From contig NZ_BORP01000001.1 of NCBI RefSeq assembly GCF_018333235.1, positions 1 through 64,000 on the forward strand: a stretch of 64,000 nucleotides of DNA, in the 5' to 3' direction. This stretch comes from Ornithinibacillus bavariensis. Its GTDB lineage: Bacteria; Bacillota; Bacilli; Bacillales; Amphibacillaceae. This document shows positions 3,470-11,432 of this stretch, piece after piece. Made by a program: the position numbers and the translations under genes. Positions within the stretch are counted from its first letter, which is position 1. Each line of letters begins with the position of its first letter. Below the pieces are notes generated by a model, which saw nothing but the letters and a program-made list of their open reading frames with translations, had not been told where the DNA came from and made no database searches.

Positions 3470-3496
3470 ATTACTTGTCAGTCAAATATGGCACAT

Positions 3497-3580
3497 GCCG
3501 GTGTGGCGGAATTGGCAGACGCGCGGGACTCAAAATCCCGTGTCCCTTGGGACGTGTCGGTTCGACCCCGACCACCGGTA
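3497..3580 (+). tRNA. tRNA-Leu (CAA), no encoded CCA
   Basis: A class II tRNA of 84 nt. Acceptor GCCGGTG pairs with CACCGGT, the anticodon loop is CTCAAAA, a long variable arm is present, and the T-loop is GGTTCGACCCC. The discriminator A3580 is followed by TCT, so CCA must be added by the CCA-adding enzyme. The 13 clustered tRNAs upstream all encode CCA. Confidence 0.95.
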
Positions 3581-3620
3581 TCTTTAGGTTAAATTTAGTT
3601 GCGAAAGAAATAGTTGATTA

Positions 3621-3662
3621 AGCTCATAATCCTTGATGTTAAAGGTTTTATGAGCTCTTTTC
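3621..3662 (+). terminator. Terminator after tRNA-Leu
   Basis: AGCTCATA (3621-3628) pairs with TATGAGCT (3649-3656), followed by CTTTTCT. It is 40 nt past the tRNA end. Confidence 0.75.
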
Positions 3663-3709
3663 TATTTTCTAAGTATATAATAGAAAATGATGTGTTTTAA
3701 TAAATGTAA

Positions 3710-3756
3710 AAAGGCTCAAGAGGGTTGATACACCAATTTTCTTGAGCCTTTTTATA
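3710..3756. terminator. Bidirectional terminator hairpin
   Basis: An 11-bp perfect stem (AAAGGCTCAAG at 3710-3720, complement at 3741-3751) has A-rich and T-rich flanks, so it can stop transcripts from either side. It separates tRNA-Leu from the convergent ATP-grasp gene. The remaining bases to 3973 hold nothing recognisable. Confidence 0.75.
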
Positions 3757-3973
3757 TAATTTGTAAAAGGTAGAATCTTAAACAACTTAATTTATTTTCA
3801 CCACTTTTTATCTCATGTCTAATCGAGTTATTTATTCATTAAATGATGGATTTATTCAATTAGCCCAAGTAATGTGAATTACTAACCCTTTTACACATCT
3901 TGGGTATCTCCGCGACCTTCGATAATGACCTTATCTGTTATTCTAGTACTTTAATAGTTTCAAGGAGTAGTAG

Positions 3974-5026
3974 TTATATTCTTATCTCAATTTTCTTTCT
4001 TTTCTTTTTTGCTTCTTTGGCCAGGTAAGTAGCATATTGAATCATTCTTTTCGCTACATCCATTTCCAAATAAAATAATATAGGTTGACCTGGTCGCCAA
4101 TTCACTTCATAAATCCAAATCTTATTATGTTGATCAATCCCTATATCGATTCCAAGCTCGTCTAATGGTTGATCGTATAAACTATCAAAATGTGTTGAAA
4201 ATTGTACAGCAAATACTTCTAAATAACGCTTGATATCGTAGTAGTCCTCATCAAATTGTTCCTGTAAAAAAGAAGTGATTACACTTGTGTAGCCCCCGCT
4301 ACTTACATTTGACACAATTCCTTTGCTAGCAATGCGAGGATACATCGTTGTTAATGTCCATTTTCCTTCACCATTTTTTTGTACATGTAGGCGAATATCA
4401 TATGATTGCCCTTGCTTAGTTTTCGATTGAATGAAAGGTTGTACTAAATAGGTCCTATCTTCTAATAAAATATCATCTAACCAATTCTCAAGTTGCCCTT
4501 CTGATAATACGTGTTTTGTTCCTGAATCAATTAGTAGATATTCATCTTGAATTTTTTCTATATAATGAACACCTTCACCTTTAGCTCCTGAAAGAGGTTT
4601 AACGATGATAGCGTTATATTTATCGATGTATGAAAGGGCCAAGTTAACTTCTTCAAATTCCTCGGAAGGTATTAAATAATTTTCAAAGATTTTCCCTTTT
4701 TTGATTCGATAATAAACGCTCATTTTATCTCCAATGGGGTGACTTGTAAAAGGAATTTCTTTTTCTAAAGCATCTACTATACGGTCTTGATTTGCGGTTA
4801 GTGTCCCTCCTGCATTGTATATAACGTCTGGATATCTGGTTTTACGTTCTACCCATACACCATTTTCATAAAATAATCCATTAATACGCCTTCTATTTAA
4901 ATCTACTTTTCCTGGAGAAAAGTAGAAAAAATCTACTCCCTCCATTTTTGCTGCGGCTGCATATGCGTATGTTTTAAAAACAGTTTGCGGATCTTTCCGG
5001 TAATGTAGCATACCTATTGTGATCAT
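3974..5026 (-). CDS. YheC/YheD-family ATP-grasp protein
   Basis: The 350-aa protein belongs to the endospore-coat-associated YheC/YheD ATP-grasp family. Visible ATP-grasp features are the nucleotide lysine in IIVKPLSGAKGEG (about 140-152), the QPFIQS segment near 196, DIRLHV near 210 and the metal-binding YEVNWRPGQP near 305. ATP-grasp enzymes join a carboxylate to an amine or thiol through an acyl-phosphate; the substrate here is unknown. The start at 5026 is chosen because GGAGG lies 7 nt upstream. An extension to 5086 has no ribosome binding site of its own. The basic tail (KKKRKK) is unusual. It is on the same strand as another ATP-grasp gene 110 nt upstream. Confidence 0.85.
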   Translation of the reverse strand: MITIGMLHYRKDPQTVFKTYAYAAAAKMEGVDFFYFSPGKVDLNRRRINGLFYENGVWVERKTRYPDVIYNAGGTLTANQDRIVDALEKEIPFTSHPIGDKMSVYYRIKKGKIFENYLIPSEEFEEVNLALSYIDKYNAIIVKPLSGAKGEGVHYIEKIQDEYLLIDSGTKHVLSEGQLENWLDDILLEDRTYLVQPFIQSKTKQGQSYDIRLHVQKNGEGKWTLTTMYPRIASKGIVSNVSSGGYTSVITSFLQEQFDEDYYDIKRYLEVFAVQFSTHFDSLYDQPLDELGIDIGIDQHNKIWIYEVNWRPGQPILFYLEMDVAKRMIQYATYLAKEAKKKRKKIEIRI

Positions 5027-5136
5027 CTGCATTCCTCCGATGATATTTTCAACTATCCTAAAAAGTTGCTTAACAAAACAGTGCATCCATTAAGATAAAA
5101 ATAAATAACATCCTATTCATCTATGGTTTATTTCTA

Positions 5137-6363
5137 TTATTCAACAGGTTTTAAATGAAACTTTATTTCTTTTGCAGCAGTTTTGGCATTCTTTTTGGCC
5201 TGTATTGATGAATATCCTGTTGCGATAATATATGCATATCGTTGTCCCATAGATATAGGCGGGGTAAGCAACCTACCTTTCCTAGGCTTTACATAAACTT
5301 CTTGAACACCTGGTAGATTAGAAGCTCGTTCTTTACCTGTTACTTTTTCCAAAATCCCTCTCTTAGAAATAGTGACATATTGCGTGAATACAGGCTTCTT
5401 CCATTTTTTTGTCAGATTAGGTGGAATACCAAGTGAAATTTTTAATGTTTCTTCAACTAAATTAATGCCGTATCCAATTTCAATGATTCTGTTCATTGCT
5501 CCACCTGAAATCCTTGGATTTATTTCAATTAGTTTACATTGGCCCTGAATAATCCTTATCTCTAAATGACAAGTGCCTGTTTCCATTTTGAAGGATTTGA
5601 TGATACTTTCGACTGCTTGCTGAATGTTTAGGAGAAGAGTCTTATTAATTTCATTCAATAATTTATATCCTGTTATGATAAATCTCTCATATTGAGTTAT
5701 TTCTTGTTCAAGGATGGCAATAATATGGATATTTCCATTAATCACAACAGTTTCAATTAAATATTGTGGGCCATCAAGATATTCCTCGATCAGAATAGAT
5801 TGATTTGGATACTTTCTTGCAAGTAAATTGACACTGTCGAATAGTTCTTTATCATTTTCAACCTTTATTACATCCTTTGAACCAGTAGAGATAGGGGATT
5901 TAACCATTAATGGATACGAATAATGTTTACTAATAGAGGCTAATGACTCTTCAGATTCCATACCATTTAGCTTGAAAAAATTAGGTGTGAAGGGTGAGTC
6001 TTTTAGTATTTCCCTCGTTAAAATTTTATCTTCCATTGCTTTTATTGCATCGATAGACAGCACCTTGTTACAGTATTCTTCATGTAATTTAGTTGCTAAA
6101 TACATATACGGATCAACAAAGCTGATAATTGCATTTATGATTAACCCTTCACTTTGGAACCCTTTTATAGTAGTTCTTAATCCTTCCACATTCGAAAAAT
6201 CAACTAAAATCATTCGGTGGACGTCTGGAAATTCAGTTCTTTGTTTTAAAAACTTTTCATTGCTTGTAAGCAGAATGGTAAAATAGCCTAGTTTTTCAGC
6301 TGCCTTAATCGCCTCTCTACTTGACCCTGATTTCATTGTGTGAAGGAAGATGATAGTTCTCAA
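5137..6363 (-). CDS. ATP-grasp ligase, L-amino-acid-ligase-like
   Basis: The 408-aa protein has a pre-ATP-grasp domain (about 1-105), an ATP-grasp fold (about 110-310) and a C-terminal domain (about 320-405) resembling that of L-amino acid ligases such as BacD. Key features are lysine 155 in LMVKSPIS, the adenine-side EEYLDG (193-198) and the metal-binding LIEINPRISGG (278-288). Such enzymes form dipeptides or amides with ATP; the substrate cannot be read from the sequence. The start is TTG, with GAGGG 9 nt upstream. It lies upstream of the YheC/D-type gene on the same strand and diverges from a MurF-like ligase. Confidence 0.8.
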   Translation of the reverse strand: MRTIIFLHTMKSGSSREAIKAAEKLGYFTILLTSNEKFLKQRTEFPDVHRMILVDFSNVEGLRTTIKGFQSEGLIINAIISFVDPYMYLATKLHEEYCNKVLSIDAIKAMEDKILTREILKDSPFTPNFFKLNGMESEESLASISKHYSYPLMVKSPISTGSKDVIKVENDKELFDSVNLLARKYPNQSILIEEYLDGPQYLIETVVINGNIHIIAILEQEITQYERFIITGYKLLNEINKTLLLNIQQAVESIIKSFKMETGTCHLEIRIIQGQCKLIEINPRISGGAMNRIIEIGYGINLVEETLKISLGIPPNLTKKWKKPVFTQYVTISKRGILEKVTGKERASNLPGVQEVYVKPRKGRLLTPPISMGQRYAYIIATGYSSIQAKKNAKTAAKEIKFHLKPVE

Positions 6364-7044
6364 AAGAAAATTCCCTCATTTCTATTTTGTATAATTTGTT
6401 TATTACATTTCAATCGTCAACATAACAATTAGATAAATGTCCTCTAGCAATAAATTAGTGCACTTAATTTTAATGTTGCCTCCATAATCCATTGGAATTT
6501 TTGAATATTTGGCATTAAAATCCTGTCAATTCTCCTCCTGATTGTATTGTATTGTAGATAGATGGTATTGAATGGATAATTATCCATAAATAATAAAATA
6601 TGCGTTCGCACAGACAAATCAAGATGGTCCATTTATGTAGTCAGACTAAATTGCAGATGTGCAGAATCTCTTTAAAAGGAAAATTAACTTTTATAAAGAG
6701 ATTTGAATATTTATTTTATATTTAAAGGAAAGGAAGTGACAAAAAACCTGATTTTGAGCTGTTTTTTAGGACTATACTCCATTTCAATTAGTAAAACTCA
6801 TCTTTTGAACTAGTAGAAATAATTACTAATTAATAATCGATACAGACTTTATATTAAATTAAAGAATTAAAGTCCATTTATCTATTCTGGAAAAAGAATG
6901 CTAGTAAAAGTTAGGCAGGAAATTAAAAAATTCACTAAATTAAATTCTAAACCTGATACGTTTATGGCATTAAATAATTACTCTAATTGATTGAGTATTT
7001 ATCCCAAACTACACCGAGTGACACCTCATATACTATTTTAGTAT
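6364..7044. other. Long AT-rich divergent intergenic region
   Basis: About 680 bases separate the divergent ligase genes. No convincing gene is present. A hairpin can form at 6665-6703 (AATCTCTTTA with TAAAGAGATT). Short TATTG repeats occur near 6540-6555. A SigK-like element, AC then 17 nt then CATATACTA, lies at 7008-7035. The spacing is unusually long for this compact genome, so it probably holds promoters for both directions. Confidence 0.4.
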
Positions 7045-7074
7045 TTGAATTCAAAATTGAATCAAGAATAGTAT
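7045..7074 (+). promoter_or_regulatory. Candidate promoter of the MurF-like ligase
   Basis: TTGAAT (7045-7050), an 18-bp spacer and TAGTAT (7069-7074) precede the TTG start at 7118. A transcript from here would start at about 7081, which excludes the upstream in-frame ATG at 7073 as the start. Confidence 0.45.
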
Positions 7075-7117
7075 GCGAGAATGCCTTTTTCAACAAAGGC
7101 TATATAGGAGGGACATT

Positions 7118-8497
7118 TTGAAGACATTATTATTGGAGGACATTTTAACTGCTATGAACATTCAGTTTAATGATAAGCAAAGAGGTAATCAAATCCAGAA
7201 GGTCACGAACGACAGTGATGAAATAGATAATCATACTTTATATTTTCGTTGGTATAACAGTGAGGTACCTGTTAAAAAGATAAAGAAATATGAGAATGTA
7301 TTTATCGTTACAGAAACACCATTTGCTAAAATGGATAGATTAAAACCCGAACAAATCATTATGGTAAAGGATCTCGAAGATAGCTACTTTAAATTTACTT
7401 CGTACTACAGACATTTGTTTAACATACCAGTGGTTGCTGTTACTGGTACTTGTGGAAAGTCTACTACAAAAGAAATGCTAAAACACATTTTGGAAGAAGA
7501 ATATAACGTCCAGGCAACTGTATCCAGTAAAAATGCTGATTATTTCAACCTACCTTACTTATTGGGAATTGATGAAGATACCGATGTGGCTGTGTTTGAA
7601 ACAGCTGTTTCTAAAAGAGGGGATATGACGGAGTCCTGCAAATATTTTTATCCGACTATTGGGATTATAACGATGATTGATGTAGACCATACGGATAAAA
7701 TTCGCTCATTTGCTGATTATTTAGCAGAAAAAGCAAAAATAATGGAAGGTATGAACAATGAAGGGACTCTCATTCTTAATATAGACGACCCATATCTTTC
7801 CTCTCTCGATACTTCTAAGTTTAAAGGGGAAATTATAACATTCGGCAAACATAGGGATGCTGATTTTAGGATTAAGTGGTCTCAACATGATTCATCAGGA
7901 ATGACTTTTTGGTTTAAATATAAGCAAAATACTTTTAAGGGATATATACCGGGTCTTGGCGAACATAATGTATACAATGCAATTACTTCATTGGTAGCCG
8001 CTGAAGTCTTAGGAGTGGATTTACACTATGCTATAAAAAGATTATCAAAGTTTCAGCACATGAAGTCCCATTTCGAAATAATTAAAGGACGAAACCAAAT
8101 AAAAGTGGTAGATGATACTTGGAAGTCAAATCCTGCTTCTTTAAGAAAAGGCTTAGAAACATTAAGTAGTATAGCGTTGCCAAATCAAAGAAAAATTGTT
8201 GTTTTGGGAAGAATGTCAGCACTAGGTGATTATGGTGATGAAGAATACAAAAAGGCAGGGCATTTGCTCGGAAAATTAGGGATTGATGTTCTTATTACTA
8301 AAGGTTTCATTGCAAAAGATTTTGTAGAGCCTGCAATAGAAGCAGGGATTAATCCGGATAATGTTTATCACTTTTCCGATGCAGATGAAATGAAGATATT
8401 TTTCGATTCATTTTTAATTCCAGATGACTTTGTTTATTTCAAAACGGGAGGGGAAGACCCGGACTTTGAGGAAATTATCGATTATTTAAGAAACTAA
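7118..8497 (+). CDS. MurF-like Mur ligase family protein
   Basis: The 459-aa protein has the three-domain Mur ligase layout. The P-loop is TGTCGKSTTKE (109-119; the usual form is GxNGKTTT). The central-domain motif FETAVSKRGDM (about 160) replaces the MurF ExGxxxxGD motif, and a VDHTDK histidine motif (about 188) is followed by the candidate carbamylated lysine in EKAK. The C-terminal domain carries VVDDTWKSNPASL and KIVVLGRMSALGDYG, as in MurF. Mur ligases add an amino acid or dipeptide to a carboxylate using ATP. The TTG start is set by AGGAGGG at 7106-7112. A housekeeping MurF would normally sit beside ddl, so this is probably a specialised paralogue working with the two divergent ATP-grasp ligases. 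Confidence 0.8.
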   Translation: MKTLLLEDILTAMNIQFNDKQRGNQIQKVTNDSDEIDNHTLYFRWYNSEVPVKKIKKYENVFIVTETPFAKMDRLKPEQIIMVKDLEDSYFKFTSYYRHLFNIPVVAVTGTCGKSTTKEMLKHILEEEYNVQATVSSKNADYFNLPYLLGIDEDTDVAVFETAVSKRGDMTESCKYFYPTIGIITMIDVDHTDKIRSFADYLAEKAKIMEGMNNEGTLILNIDDPYLSSLDTSKFKGEIITFGKHRDADFRIKWSQHDSSGMTFWFKYKQNTFKGYIPGLGEHNVYNAITSLVAAEVLGVDLHYAIKRLSKFQHMKSHFEIIKGRNQIKVVDDTWKSNPASLRKGLETLSSIALPNQRKIVVLGRMSALGDYGDEEYKKAGHLLGKLGIDVLITKGFIAKDFVEPAIEAGINPDNVYHFSDADEMKIFFDSFLIPDDFVYFKTGGEDPDFEEIIDYLRN

Positions 8498-8611
8498 ATG
8501 GGTGAATCTTTTCTCATAACACTTTTTAAATATGGAAAAGAAAAAGGGCTTTATCAAGAAGTCATAGCCGAAAATTAGTTACTACACAAGCCGGCACAAA
8601 TGGGGAAGTGA

Positions 8612-8800
8612 CCAAGGATATCCTGGAATGAAAATACTTCATATAATGGAAAAAGTTTATGGAGTTTCTATGGTGGACTACCTGCTGATGAAATCTGTCG
8701 TACAAGCAATTATAAAGTGTTGGAATATTATGTTATCATGTTAGCGATAACCTATATTACAGGGGTAAGAGCATATTATCGCCGGTATAAAATAGTGTAA
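8612..8800 (+). pseudogene. Gene remnant, C-terminal fragment without a start
   Basis: A 62-codon open frame ends in TAA at 8798-8800 and reads like real protein, with an amphipathic then hydrophobic stretch (VLEYYVIMLAITYITG) and a basic end (RAYYRRYK). It has no plausible start or ribosome binding site, and a stop precedes it at 8609. A 26-codon open frame at 8498-8578 in another register may be part of the same decayed gene. The family was not recognised. Confidence 0.3.
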
Positions 8801-8805
8801 GGTCA

Positions 8806-8838
8806 AGGGTTCTCACATTGGTGAGGGCTCTTTTTTGT
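8806..8838 (+). terminator. Intrinsic terminator
   Basis: An 11-bp stem including G-U pairs (AGGGTTCTCAC with GTGAGGGCTCT, loop ATTG) is followed by TTTTTTG. It ends transcription from the Mur ligase or the remnant after it. Confidence 0.75.
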
Positions 8839-8902
8839 ATATATCAGCGTAATCTCCTATATGAAACAACTACTCTACTTTATATTAGTACTCCTTTCTT
8901 TC

Positions 8903-9175
8903 CTATAAATGCAGTCTTAACAATCTAATAACATCATTCAACACAAAGCTTGTCTTTTTTAAGTAAGTAATAAGGTTACGTATCCACACGGTTAAAAATA
9001 TTTCGCTTAAGCAATTGTTTTTTATGTAATAACTCTCCACAACATCTATTATACTAACAAGTTTATGCGAAGTAGATTTTTCAAGAGTTTCTAAAGAAAC
9101 AATTAGTAGTTTAGTTTTATCAGATGATATCTCCAAATCTAAACTAGTCCTTAATAAATACATCTCTATCCCCAT
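8903..9175 (-). CDS. Hypothetical small protein
   Basis: A 90-aa open frame, or 86 aa if the second methionine is used, which has GGGGATAGAG just before it. It is rich in Leu, Ile and Ser and predicted to be mostly helical, with no recognised family. There is no overlapping gene on the other strand, which favours it being real, but the ribosome binding site is weak and the composition is unremarkable. It may equally be a chance open frame in an AT-rich gap. Confidence 0.35.
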   Translation of the reverse strand: MGIEMYLLRTSLDLEISSDKTKLLIVSLETLEKSTSHKLVSIIDVVESYYIKNNCLSEIFLTVWIRNLITYLKKTSFVLNDVIRLLRLHL

Positions 9176-9335
9176 AAACCAAAAGGTTATTTCGAATACA
9201 ATAAAGGTGAACTATCTATATCTGTACTTTTTTTATGAAAAATACTTTTTTCTAATAACTGTGTATGACATAACTATAAATAATTGGTAGGTAGCAATTT
9301 ACTATCAAATTTTAACAACAATGTGAGGGATTATC

Positions 9336-11432
9336 ATGACTATCGAGAATGAACTAATTAATAAATCCTATTATCAAACTTTAGTAGCTGAAAATGAAAA
9401 AGAGCACCCAATAAAAGTGTTGGGTGAAATGTATATGAATGAGATGCAGAAAAAGCGGCCAGATTTATCCTCTATCCGCTATGCGCAAGGGGAGGTATAT
9501 TTCTTAAATAATGATTATGAGGCAGCGATTTATAAATGGGGCACACCATTAGATGATAGATTAATTCCCTGGGCTCAAAAAAATATAGCGGATGCCCATT
9601 TTGAAATGGGTTTATTAGAGCTTGCTGAAGAATGCTATAAGGCAGTCGATACGGATGTAATGGAGTTGAAGGTGGAAGTTCTGCTGCAGCTTTTTTCTCT
9701 ATACATACAACAAGGTAGTACCGAAAAGGCGATTGATGCAATTAAAAATGCAGTTCAGCTAAATCCAGATTATTCCTATGTGACACAGATAGCTCAGTCT
9801 TATTTTGAGGATATTAAGGATTGGAATAGCGCAGTTGAACTTGCAGTAAATGAATCAATTCGAACACAGTCACTTTCCTGGGTTTCGATTTTGGAAGAGT
9901 ATGTGGAGCAGGGACTTACCTATGATTTTCAACCAAATTATTTTAATGAGGTATTAGTGACCGTATTACACATTGATAAATTAAGATTTGAAAGTCTTTC
10001 TGAATTATTGTGGAACAGTTATAAACATAGTAACTTATATATTCCGTGGTTAAAGGAAATCAACCAGCTTCTTTTGACATATAATTTAGAAGAAGCTTAT
10101 ATGTGGAAGAAGCTTCCCAACCTATTTAAAGAATCTTACTTTGATTTAATTAGCGGAGAATTTTTAATAAGTGATATTTCGATGCTAATTCAAGACCATT
10201 TAACGAATTGGTTGGAAATATCAACCGTATCAGATTCCTTAATTTCATCCTCAGCTATCCTCGCTTGGAATGATATTTTCCCATCTGATCTAGATGTCAC
10301 TTTAGTAAGTAAAGCAGAGGATTATTTTGAACACTCAAATTCGTATCAATATGGCAGACAAGAAGGTATTAAGCTATTTGAATCGATTAAGCAATGGGCG
10401 GAGAAAGAAGGCTTATTAGATGATTTGTATGTAAATATTATGCCTATGATTGAGGAGTACAATATAGAAGTGGCTAGCCCTTCTAAAATAAGGAGTATTA
10501 TTAAAGCTACAATTGCGTTTCTTGTTGAAAAACGAATAGAAGTAGAAAATGCTGTTATTGATAATATTAATTGGGATGAAGAATTACTTGTTAAACTCCA
10601 AGATATACAGCTTCAGCTGGATGATATGGAAAAAGTTGAAGCGAGAGTGATAAAAGATTCCTTCCGTAAAATAAAAAATGATTTAAGTCAACATATGATG
10701 CTTACGCTCCCTGAACTACTTCGAAATTGCTCTGAATTGGTTCATGAGGACAGTGATTTTGGTAAGCTTCATGTTGACCTTAATGATGAAATGAATAGAC
10801 GGATTGCTGATTATATGGAAAACACGGCCTTACATGATTTTAAACATGCATTTCAACGTTGGATTGAGGACTGCGAGCGAGAGTTTAATGACTGCCAAAT
10901 TAAAATAAACGAAATAAGTGAAGGTTTTAATTATCAGTATAATGAAGAGAAAATTGTATTAGAGGGCGACTTTAAGGTATTGGATGATTGGAAGAGAGAT
11001 ATGGAACGGATATCAAGAGGAATGCTGCATATAGAAAAAGCGAATATTATGCTGCGTAACAACCCTTCCCAATTGTTGTTAAAAGGGGCAGGGAAGCTAT
11101 TGGGTTCGATTTCCAAAAGTAATGAAAAGCTCCATAGCAAGTATAAGAACTACATTGAAAATGGGGACTATAGTCAAATTACACAGGAAATTATCAATCC
11201 GCTCATAAAACAATTAGAACTGTTTGAGGGGTCAATCGAGTGGGATATAAGCAAATTTTTCTCAAATTCTCTGGAAGTACTAAATAGAGTAAGTGAGGAA
11301 TTGCACGGTGATATTGAAAAACAAAACTACTCGCTAGAAACTATGCGGAATCAACCTGAAATCTACCGCGATCCACTTACTTTGTTCGAATTAAGACTTC
11401 GGCAATATGAGTTAATGAATACTATAAGTTAA
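9336..11432 (+). CDS. Large TPR and alpha-helical protein
   Basis: The 698-aa soluble protein starts with tetratricopeptide-like helical pairs (about 40-175; for example YAQGEVYFLNNDYEAAIYKW and AIDAIKNAVQLNPDYSYV). A long helical region follows (about 380-690) with charged coiled-coil-like stretches. The C-terminal part resembles the helical stalk of bacterial dynamin-like proteins, but no GTPase P-loop is present. It may be a scaffold or a dynamin-family relative that has lost its GTPase; this is inference. The ATG has GAGGG upstream. The gene stands alone, with a hairpin and a convergent oxidoreductase after it. Confidence 0.6.
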   Translation: MTIENELINKSYYQTLVAENEKEHPIKVLGEMYMNEMQKKRPDLSSIRYAQGEVYFLNNDYEAAIYKWGTPLDDRLIPWAQKNIADAHFEMGLLELAEECYKAVDTDVMELKVEVLLQLFSLYIQQGSTEKAIDAIKNAVQLNPDYSYVTQIAQSYFEDIKDWNSAVELAVNESIRTQSLSWVSILEEYVEQGLTYDFQPNYFNEVLVTVLHIDKLRFESLSELLWNSYKHSNLYIPWLKEINQLLLTYNLEEAYMWKKLPNLFKESYFDLISGEFLISDISMLIQDHLTNWLEISTVSDSLISSSAILAWNDIFPSDLDVTLVSKAEDYFEHSNSYQYGRQEGIKLFESIKQWAEKEGLLDDLYVNIMPMIEEYNIEVASPSKIRSIIKATIAFLVEKRIEVENAVIDNINWDEELLVKLQDIQLQLDDMEKVEARVIKDSFRKIKNDLSQHMMLTLPELLRNCSELVHEDSDFGKLHVDLNDEMNRRIADYMENTALHDFKHAFQRWIEDCEREFNDCQIKINEISEGFNYQYNEEKIVLEGDFKVLDDWKRDMERISRGMLHIEKANIMLRNNPSQLLLKGAGKLLGSISKSNEKLHSKYKNYIENGDYSQITQEIINPLIKQLELFEGSIEWDISKFFSNSLEVLNRVSEELHGDIEKQNYSLETMRNQPEIYRDPLTLFELRLRQYELMNTIS

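Follow-up and report, generated by a model that had tools for sequence, protein, structure and literature searches.

A conserved trio of LAL, YheC/D and Mur-type ligases in endospore-forming bacteria that may supply an amide-linked component of the outer spore layers

Here, we describe three ligase genes that lie side by side in Ornithinibacillus bavariensis within a stretch of 64,000 nucleotides (contig NZ_BORP01000001.1, positions 1 to 64,000; hereafter, the window). They encode an ATP-grasp ligase of the YheC/D type, an ATP-grasp ligase of the L-amino-acid-ligase type (LAL) and a Mur ligase (Table 1). As the initial annotation had it, the three are direct neighbors; all reading frames are intact, and each product scores above the cut-offs of its Pfam families. 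Start codons were refined from ribosome-binding sites (RBS) and homologues. LAL and YheC/D are read from one strand, LAL first, and probably form an operon; the Mur gene is divergent from this ATP-grasp pair. The divergent layout described initially stands, while the length of the region between them, given then as 680 bp, becomes 754 bp with the refined starts. The trio recurs in distant spore formers, often beside a spore-surface gene, and its probable product is therefore a peptide-like constituent of the outer layers of the spore.

Table 1. Features of the ligase locus, in window coordinates
Feature	Position	Strand	Remarks
YheC/D-type ATP-grasp ligase, 350 aa	3974..5026	-	PF14398; GGAGG before ATG 5026; open frame from 5086
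L-amino-acid-ligase-type ATP-grasp (LAL), 408 aa	5137..6363	-	TTG start 6363; scores above the PF18603 and PF13535 cut-offs
Mur ligase paralogue, 459 aa	7118..8497	+	TTG start 7118; RBS AGGAGGG 7106-7112; PF08245, PF02875
Divergent intergenic region, 754 bp	6364..7117	no strand	No conserved small reading frame detected
Candidate Mur promoter resembling the sigma-K/E type	7007..7035	+	AAC 7007-7009, 17-bp spacer, CATATACTA 7027-7035; motif match only
tRNA-Leu(CAA), left edge of the variable slot holding the trio	3496..3582	+	

The clustering of the three families is far beyond chance. A scan of genome contigs with four Mur proteins returned more than 80 loci, and in the best 80, at profile thresholds of at least 300 bits for both partners, LAL was found in 58, YheC/D in 57, both in 54, and LAL or any YheC/D in 72; these counts are lower bounds because some stretches are short. 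L053 (Domibacillus) has Mur only. Both ATP-grasps were present in 34 of the 51 strain or genus labels among these loci. With LAL as the anchor, we examined 20 regions from 20 genomes among the 41 of our order sample that bear LAL; these headed the list and were not a random draw. They contained YheC/D in 18 cases (L173 has only a weaker YheC/D and L175 none) and Mur at 200 bits or more in eight (seven at 400 or more). LAL or YheC/D was found in 0/20 control regions around housekeeping murF, which represent 20 loci within the set L011-L037 (27 loci). Across the 397 genomes of the order sample, 41 have LAL, 46 have Mur and 25 have both versus ∼4.8 expected (hypergeometric p 1e-16, kinship ignored). 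The linkage holds from genus to genus and reaches as far as Herbinix, Clostridium and Desulfosporosinus records and those of Haloplasma and Acholeplasmatales type. A lack of conserved linkage across genomes, named initially as a result that would refute the idea, was thus not observed. The view of the trio as a conserved functional module is well supported.

The Mur protein has a MurF-like fold and belongs to a clade of its own. It matches Mur_ligase_M with 122.6 bits (cut-off 24) and Mur_ligase_C with 31.6 bits (cut-off 28.4), and its AlphaFold2 (AF2) model (pLDDT 91.9) has the three-domain MurF fold including a MurF-like N-terminal domain (TMq 0.83 to MurF 4qf5). The top NCBIfam match is murF (TIGR01143) at 222.9 bits, short of the curated cut-off of 288.6, and the score to cyanophycin synthetase (TIGR02068) is 77.5 bits against a cut-off of 850. 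The fold and the catalytic residues are shared with MurF, the UDP-MurNAc (UDP-N-acetylmuramic acid)-tripeptide:D-Ala-D-Ala ligase: E161, H191, K205 (presumably the carbamoylated lysine), N287, D333 and the GK of the P-loop are kept in 35/35 family rows and in 20/20 housekeeping MurF. By contrast, the R34, N112, Y335 and E368 signatures of MurF are replaced. R34, which we take to be part of the UDP-binding DSR motif, is found in 1/35 family rows versus 19/20 housekeeping MurF; position 112 is C in 34/35 but N in 19/20; position 335 is W in 35/35 and Y in 0/35, whereas MurF has Y in 19/20; N336 is present in 8/35 versus 20/20, and E368 in 2/35 versus 20/20. The family thus largely lacks the DSR, NDAYNAS and E368 signatures that mark MurF, and the deviations first noticed in the P-loop and ExG region of the window protein are real and family-wide. 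In a quick maximum-likelihood tree of 76 rows, the window family forms its own clade (30 rows, SH-aLRT 98) and does not group with housekeeping MurF; 13/14 MurF fall into another clade, the exception, L198, being a long-branched row on its own. Against the family profile, housekeeping MurF score 180 to 241 bits and family members at least 378.

The window genome (G000; 3.47 Mb, 31 contigs) has six Mur-ligase-domain genes besides the window Mur. One of MurF type lies at C1:673325-674431, between a MurE-type (671877) and a MurD-type (675853) gene, and is 26% identical to the window protein; for this reason we regard 7118-8497 as a paralogue. An ordinary but displaced murF was rejected on the grounds that murF lies elsewhere, the MurF motifs are replaced and the clade is separate, and the initial caveat that the window gene might be an ordinary MurF in a genome whose usual murF is missing falls with it. 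Genes annotated murF in Bacillales can therefore be something else. Because the window model keeps a MurF-like N-terminal domain, we infer rather than conclude that the family no longer uses UDP-MurNAc. A further MurE-like Mur ligase in this genome (C2:131537-132505) lies apart from the murE-murF-murD row. Elsewhere, the Mur ligase encoded at L085:9503-11266 begins with a GNAT-like acetyltransferase domain, and the Mur proteins of L084 and L118 are similar in length; in the suaedaesalsae cluster, a third Mur-like protein (L038:13342-14631) has lost its P-loop sequence and is a possible pseudoenzyme.

The window YheC/D protein scores 199.2 bits to PF14398 (Pfam gathering cut-off 26.8), and its AF2 model (pLDDT 89.8) has as its top Foldseek match RimK 5zct (E 3.1e-14, TMq 0.60), followed by the ATP-grasp 7mgv from the biosynthesis of a ribosomally synthesized and posttranslationally modified peptide (RiPP) and, further down, by ArgX and TTL/TTLL structures; it models as a RimK-like ligase. 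The protein shares its domain family with YheC and YheD of Bacillus subtilis but belongs to a subfamily (score of at least 300 to A3) that either accompanies LAL or forms fusions with Mur. Arrays of YheC/D paralogues occur at several loci, and the classic-type members within these arrays score about 26 to 133 to A3. One other gene of the window genome has YheC/D matches (C1:1076817-1078610; two matches, apparently in one 820-aa frame). We found no assigned reaction for YheC/D proteins in the open-access literature searched. LAL scores 67.5 bits to LAL_C2 (PF18603; cut-off 29.4) and 63.1 to ATP-grasp_4 (cut-off 27), domains that it has in common with L-amino acid ligases such as BL00235 (3vot), the RizA-type 4wd3 and bacilysin BacD, the first two of which are its nearest solved relatives. 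It differs from these enzymes in forming a separate family, with 35 invariant columns across 26 relatives, that is conserved with YheC/D and often with a CotY/Z-like gene. Iyer and co-workers in 2009 reportedly predicted amidoligase networks in which ATP-grasp ligases act in uncharacterised peptide pathways; the likeness to our trio lies in this general idea.

In 22 of the best 80 Mur loci, YheC/D is fused to the middle and C-terminal Mur domains in a protein of ∼720 aa that lacks the Mur N-terminal domain, and these forms make up a separate clade (16 rows, SH-aLRT 100). The fusion of ATP-grasp and Mur domains known from cyanophycin synthetase (CphA), to which the initial annotation had pointed, accordingly exists in relatives of the window genes. 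CphA likewise joins an ATP-grasp to a Mur module without the UDP-binding N-terminal domain; however, the ATP-grasp here is of the YheC/D type, and the window parts are separate genes, with a TIGR02068 score far below cut-off. Some loci carry additional enzymes. At L078, L092, L114, L116 and L040, the Mur gene is followed by genes that cluster with phosphoenolpyruvate (PEP) mutase, a thiamine pyrophosphate (TPP) enzyme and a nucleotidyltransferase-aminotransferase fusion (Pfam checked on L078); at L078, a COOH-NH2 ligase fused to YheC/D precedes Mur. A spermidine-synthase-like gene lies upstream in both loci checked (L078 and L040), and one L040 gene belongs to the N-formylglutamate amidohydrolase family by Pfam. 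This gene content suggests synthesis of aminoethylphosphonate at L078-type loci, where some products may contain a phosphonate or polyamine unit. In Lysinibacillus-type loci, a secreted three-repeat NlpC/P60 protein adjoins the second Mur gene (L112:11352-12698 and kin; 27 members, 14 labels).

Several lines of evidence support an association with sporulation, as had been proposed initially. First, spoIVA was found in 15/15 carrier genomes examined, including Haloplasma- and Acholeplasmatales-named records; these genomes came from 16 loci chosen for diversity, all except L106 being covered. In the order sample, 382/397 genomes have spoIVA, among them all 62 that bear LAL or Mur, and the 15 genomes lacking spoIVA include 0 carriers versus ∼2 expected, a weak contrast. 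In the order to which G431 belongs, spoIVA is present in 21/43 genomes (20 over cut-off), LAL in six and Mur in five, with spoIVA in every carrier (LAL p 0.009, uncorrected). Among the genomes tested, carriers were confined to those with spoIVA. Second, a CotY/Z-like gene was detected in 27 of the best 80 Mur loci, in 9/20 LAL-anchored regions and in 0/20 murF controls, often 17 to 132 bp from LAL (PF10612 in one member tested). Third, CATAnnnTA, a −10 element of the sigma-E/K type, is enriched upstream of Mur: it precedes 38/74 distinct Mur genes versus a frequency of 0.147 in shuffles, 77/507 other genes of the same loci and 25/143 genes of the murF control regions; with L041-L058, the window and L038/L039 left out, it precedes 26/56. 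According to passages of PMC517825, B. subtilis yheC and yheD belong to the sigma-E regulon and are upregulated by SpoIIID, and passages of PMC8546674 and PMC4950064 describe CotY/ExsY and CotZ as builders of exosporium and crust, with CotY/ExsY forming the exosporium basal layer (PMC8546674). The module likely serves the outer layers of the spore. Five records of Haloplasma and Acholeplasmatales type (L061, L063, L065, L066 and L069, in G427-G431), kin of bacteria named as wall-less, carry spoIVA.

The trio occupies a variable genomic slot. At the left end of the window, a tRNA array (491-1740) is followed by a DUF3231 gene, a second gene and tRNA-Leu; in the same-genus genome G006 (L204), the tRNAs, these genes, tRNA-Leu and a tetratricopeptide repeat (TPR) gene (window 9336-11432) are kept, and different genes lie in between. 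Comparison with L204 places the slot at 3583-9335, from tRNA-Leu to the conserved TPR gene, and other same-genus genomes carry unrelated genes upstream of the TPR gene. Mur of the window family was found in 0/10 same-genus genomes, and LAL is absent from G004, the one checked for it. The window Mur is 75 to 77% identical to that of a Neobacillus group whose YheC/D is 51 to 53% identical, while the window YheC/D is 66 to 76% identical to that of loci whose Mur is 49 to 53% identical. These identities point to different loci, and the parts of the trio have thus been reassorted. By G+C fraction, the coding sequences of the trio (0.338) do not stand out from the rest of the window (0.358). LAL/YheC/D pairs lie side by side on the Priestia megaterium plasmids pBM300 and pBP01R2a; a third plasmid record from this species has only LAL annotated, in an incomplete gene table. 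On pBM300 of the laboratory strain QM B1551, which presumably has exosporium genes on plasmids, the pair (YheC/D, BMQ_RS25695; LAL, BMQ_RS25700) is near a collagen-like gene. Carriage of Mur by plasmids or by phages and other viruses was rejected on low identities: 132 plasmid records matched, all below 60% (15 listed, 25 to 29%), as did 42 records of a phage collection, all below 60% (eight listed, 26 to 28%), and no relative was among 45 pattern matches in viral contigs.

Altogether, we favor, with modest confidence, a model whereby the trio is one form of a mobile pathway in endospore formers. The pathway would be expressed in the mother cell and make a nonribosomal amide-linked product for the outer spore layers; this product may be a short peptide, a polyamide or an amino-acyl conjugate. 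Substrates, order of steps, product, its location and expression are all predictions from sequence. LAL would activate a carboxylate as an acyl phosphate and join it to an amine, giving a dipeptide-like unit, to which YheC/D, as a ligase resembling RimK, TTL and ArgX, would add a further unit. Mur, with P-loop ATP and a carbamoylated lysine and not shaped for UDP-MurNAc, would add another unit to a free carboxylate, and the product would then be built into, or attached to, a crust or exosporium layer of the CotY/Z type. Some observations weigh against this model. Mur is less tightly tied to the locus than the ATP-grasp pair: it is absent from 12/20 LAL-anchored regions, eight of the best 80 Mur loci have neither partner in the stretch covered, and 21/46 Mur genomes are without LAL. 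The order and strand of the three genes vary, and Neobacillus and Lysinibacillus kin dominate the carrier loci. CATAnnnTA is not enriched before YheC/D (4/33; shuffles 0.150), is only mildly enriched before LAL (14/58; shuffles 0.146) and is absent before the window LAL gene, and a stricter sigma-E pattern with a −35 element is not enriched before Mur (0/74). Moreover, no CotY/Z-like gene lies near the window trio.

Other explanations account for parts of these data. The ligases might modify proteins of the coat, crust or exosporium, attaching amino acids or short side chains in the manner of RimK and TTL, instead of making a free peptide or polymer. This idea fits the structural neighbors of YheC/D, i.e., RimK, the RiPP-modifying ATP-grasp, ArgX and TTL/TTLL, several of which act on protein carboxylates, as well as the CotY/Z-like genes adjoining LAL at many loci and the YheC/D paralogue arrays. 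However, the LAL-type enzymes that have names make dipeptides, the acceptors of Mur ligases are small carboxylates or peptides, and 53 of the best 80 Mur loci, like the window, lack the CotY/Z-like gene; we consider protein modification unlikely. A product with no tie to the spore surface, either a secondary metabolite such as an antibiotic-like dipeptide or a storage polymer such as a cyanophycin-like polyamide, appears less likely still. Relatives of LAL include bacilysin-type synthetases and, with an NCBIfam match below cut-off, dapdiamide synthase; the YheC/D-Mur fusion resembles cyanophycin synthetase, and the variable slot and plasmid carriage would suit such a pathway. Yet the carriers tested have spoIVA, CotY/Z-like genes are neighbors, the score to TIGR02068 is a small fraction of its cut-off, and no exporter recurs among the conserved neighbor genes, a genome-wide search for an exporter or ddl not having been made.

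That Mur acts on UDP-MurNAc peptides to make a modified peptidoglycan precursor for cortex or germ-cell wall is, in our view, improbable: the MurF fold with its N-terminal domain and the best NCBIfam match would allow it, but the murF cut-off is not reached, R34, Y335 and E368 are nearly or entirely lost from the family, and the fused relatives have no N-terminal domain. Of the proposals in the initial annotation, the link to sporulation is supported by spoIVA, the CotY/Z-like neighbors and the promoter motif, and the product itself is a prediction; a modified cell-wall precursor is not supported, given the lost R of DSR, NDAYNAS and E368, the fused relatives and the murF gene elsewhere. A graspetide-like RiPP pathway with a ribosomal precursor peptide is very improbable despite the second-best fold match of YheC/D. 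The 230 small frames with an RBS in the vicinity of the cores include a single family found under three labels, which resembles fragments of the NlpC/P60 gene, and a precursor was rejected because no small frame proved conserved; Mur and LAL ligases are not known as RiPP partners. We give equally little credence to anti-phage or other island cargo, to which a tRNA-flanked variable slot could point: the associations with sporulation speak against cargo of this kind, and a defense function was rejected, as PADLOC yielded a single marginal match (MTase_III, 16.3 bits, E 6.9e-4).

Among the matches listed in the open-access literature, none describes a cluster of YheC/D with Mur or of LAL with CotZ, and no such cluster is described in the passages of PMC4431377, PMC2922099 and PMC11915815 that we consulted. 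Returning to the proposed spore-layer pathway, we tentatively raise a broader possibility, itself rather doubtful: a previously undescribed, horizontally moving pathway might be common to endospore formers, with the lineages named as wall-less (Haloplasma and Acholeplasmatales types) among them. It would build a nonribosomal polyamide as a chemical layer in the crust or exosporium, into which some lineages may incorporate 2-aminoethylphosphonate or polyamine units, and would use a Mur subfamily freed from UDP-MurNAc. Apart from its proteins and sugars, the spore surface is chemically little understood, and the conserved module of LAL, YheC/D and Mur next to CotY/Z-like genes gives a concrete, testable class of reactions for it.

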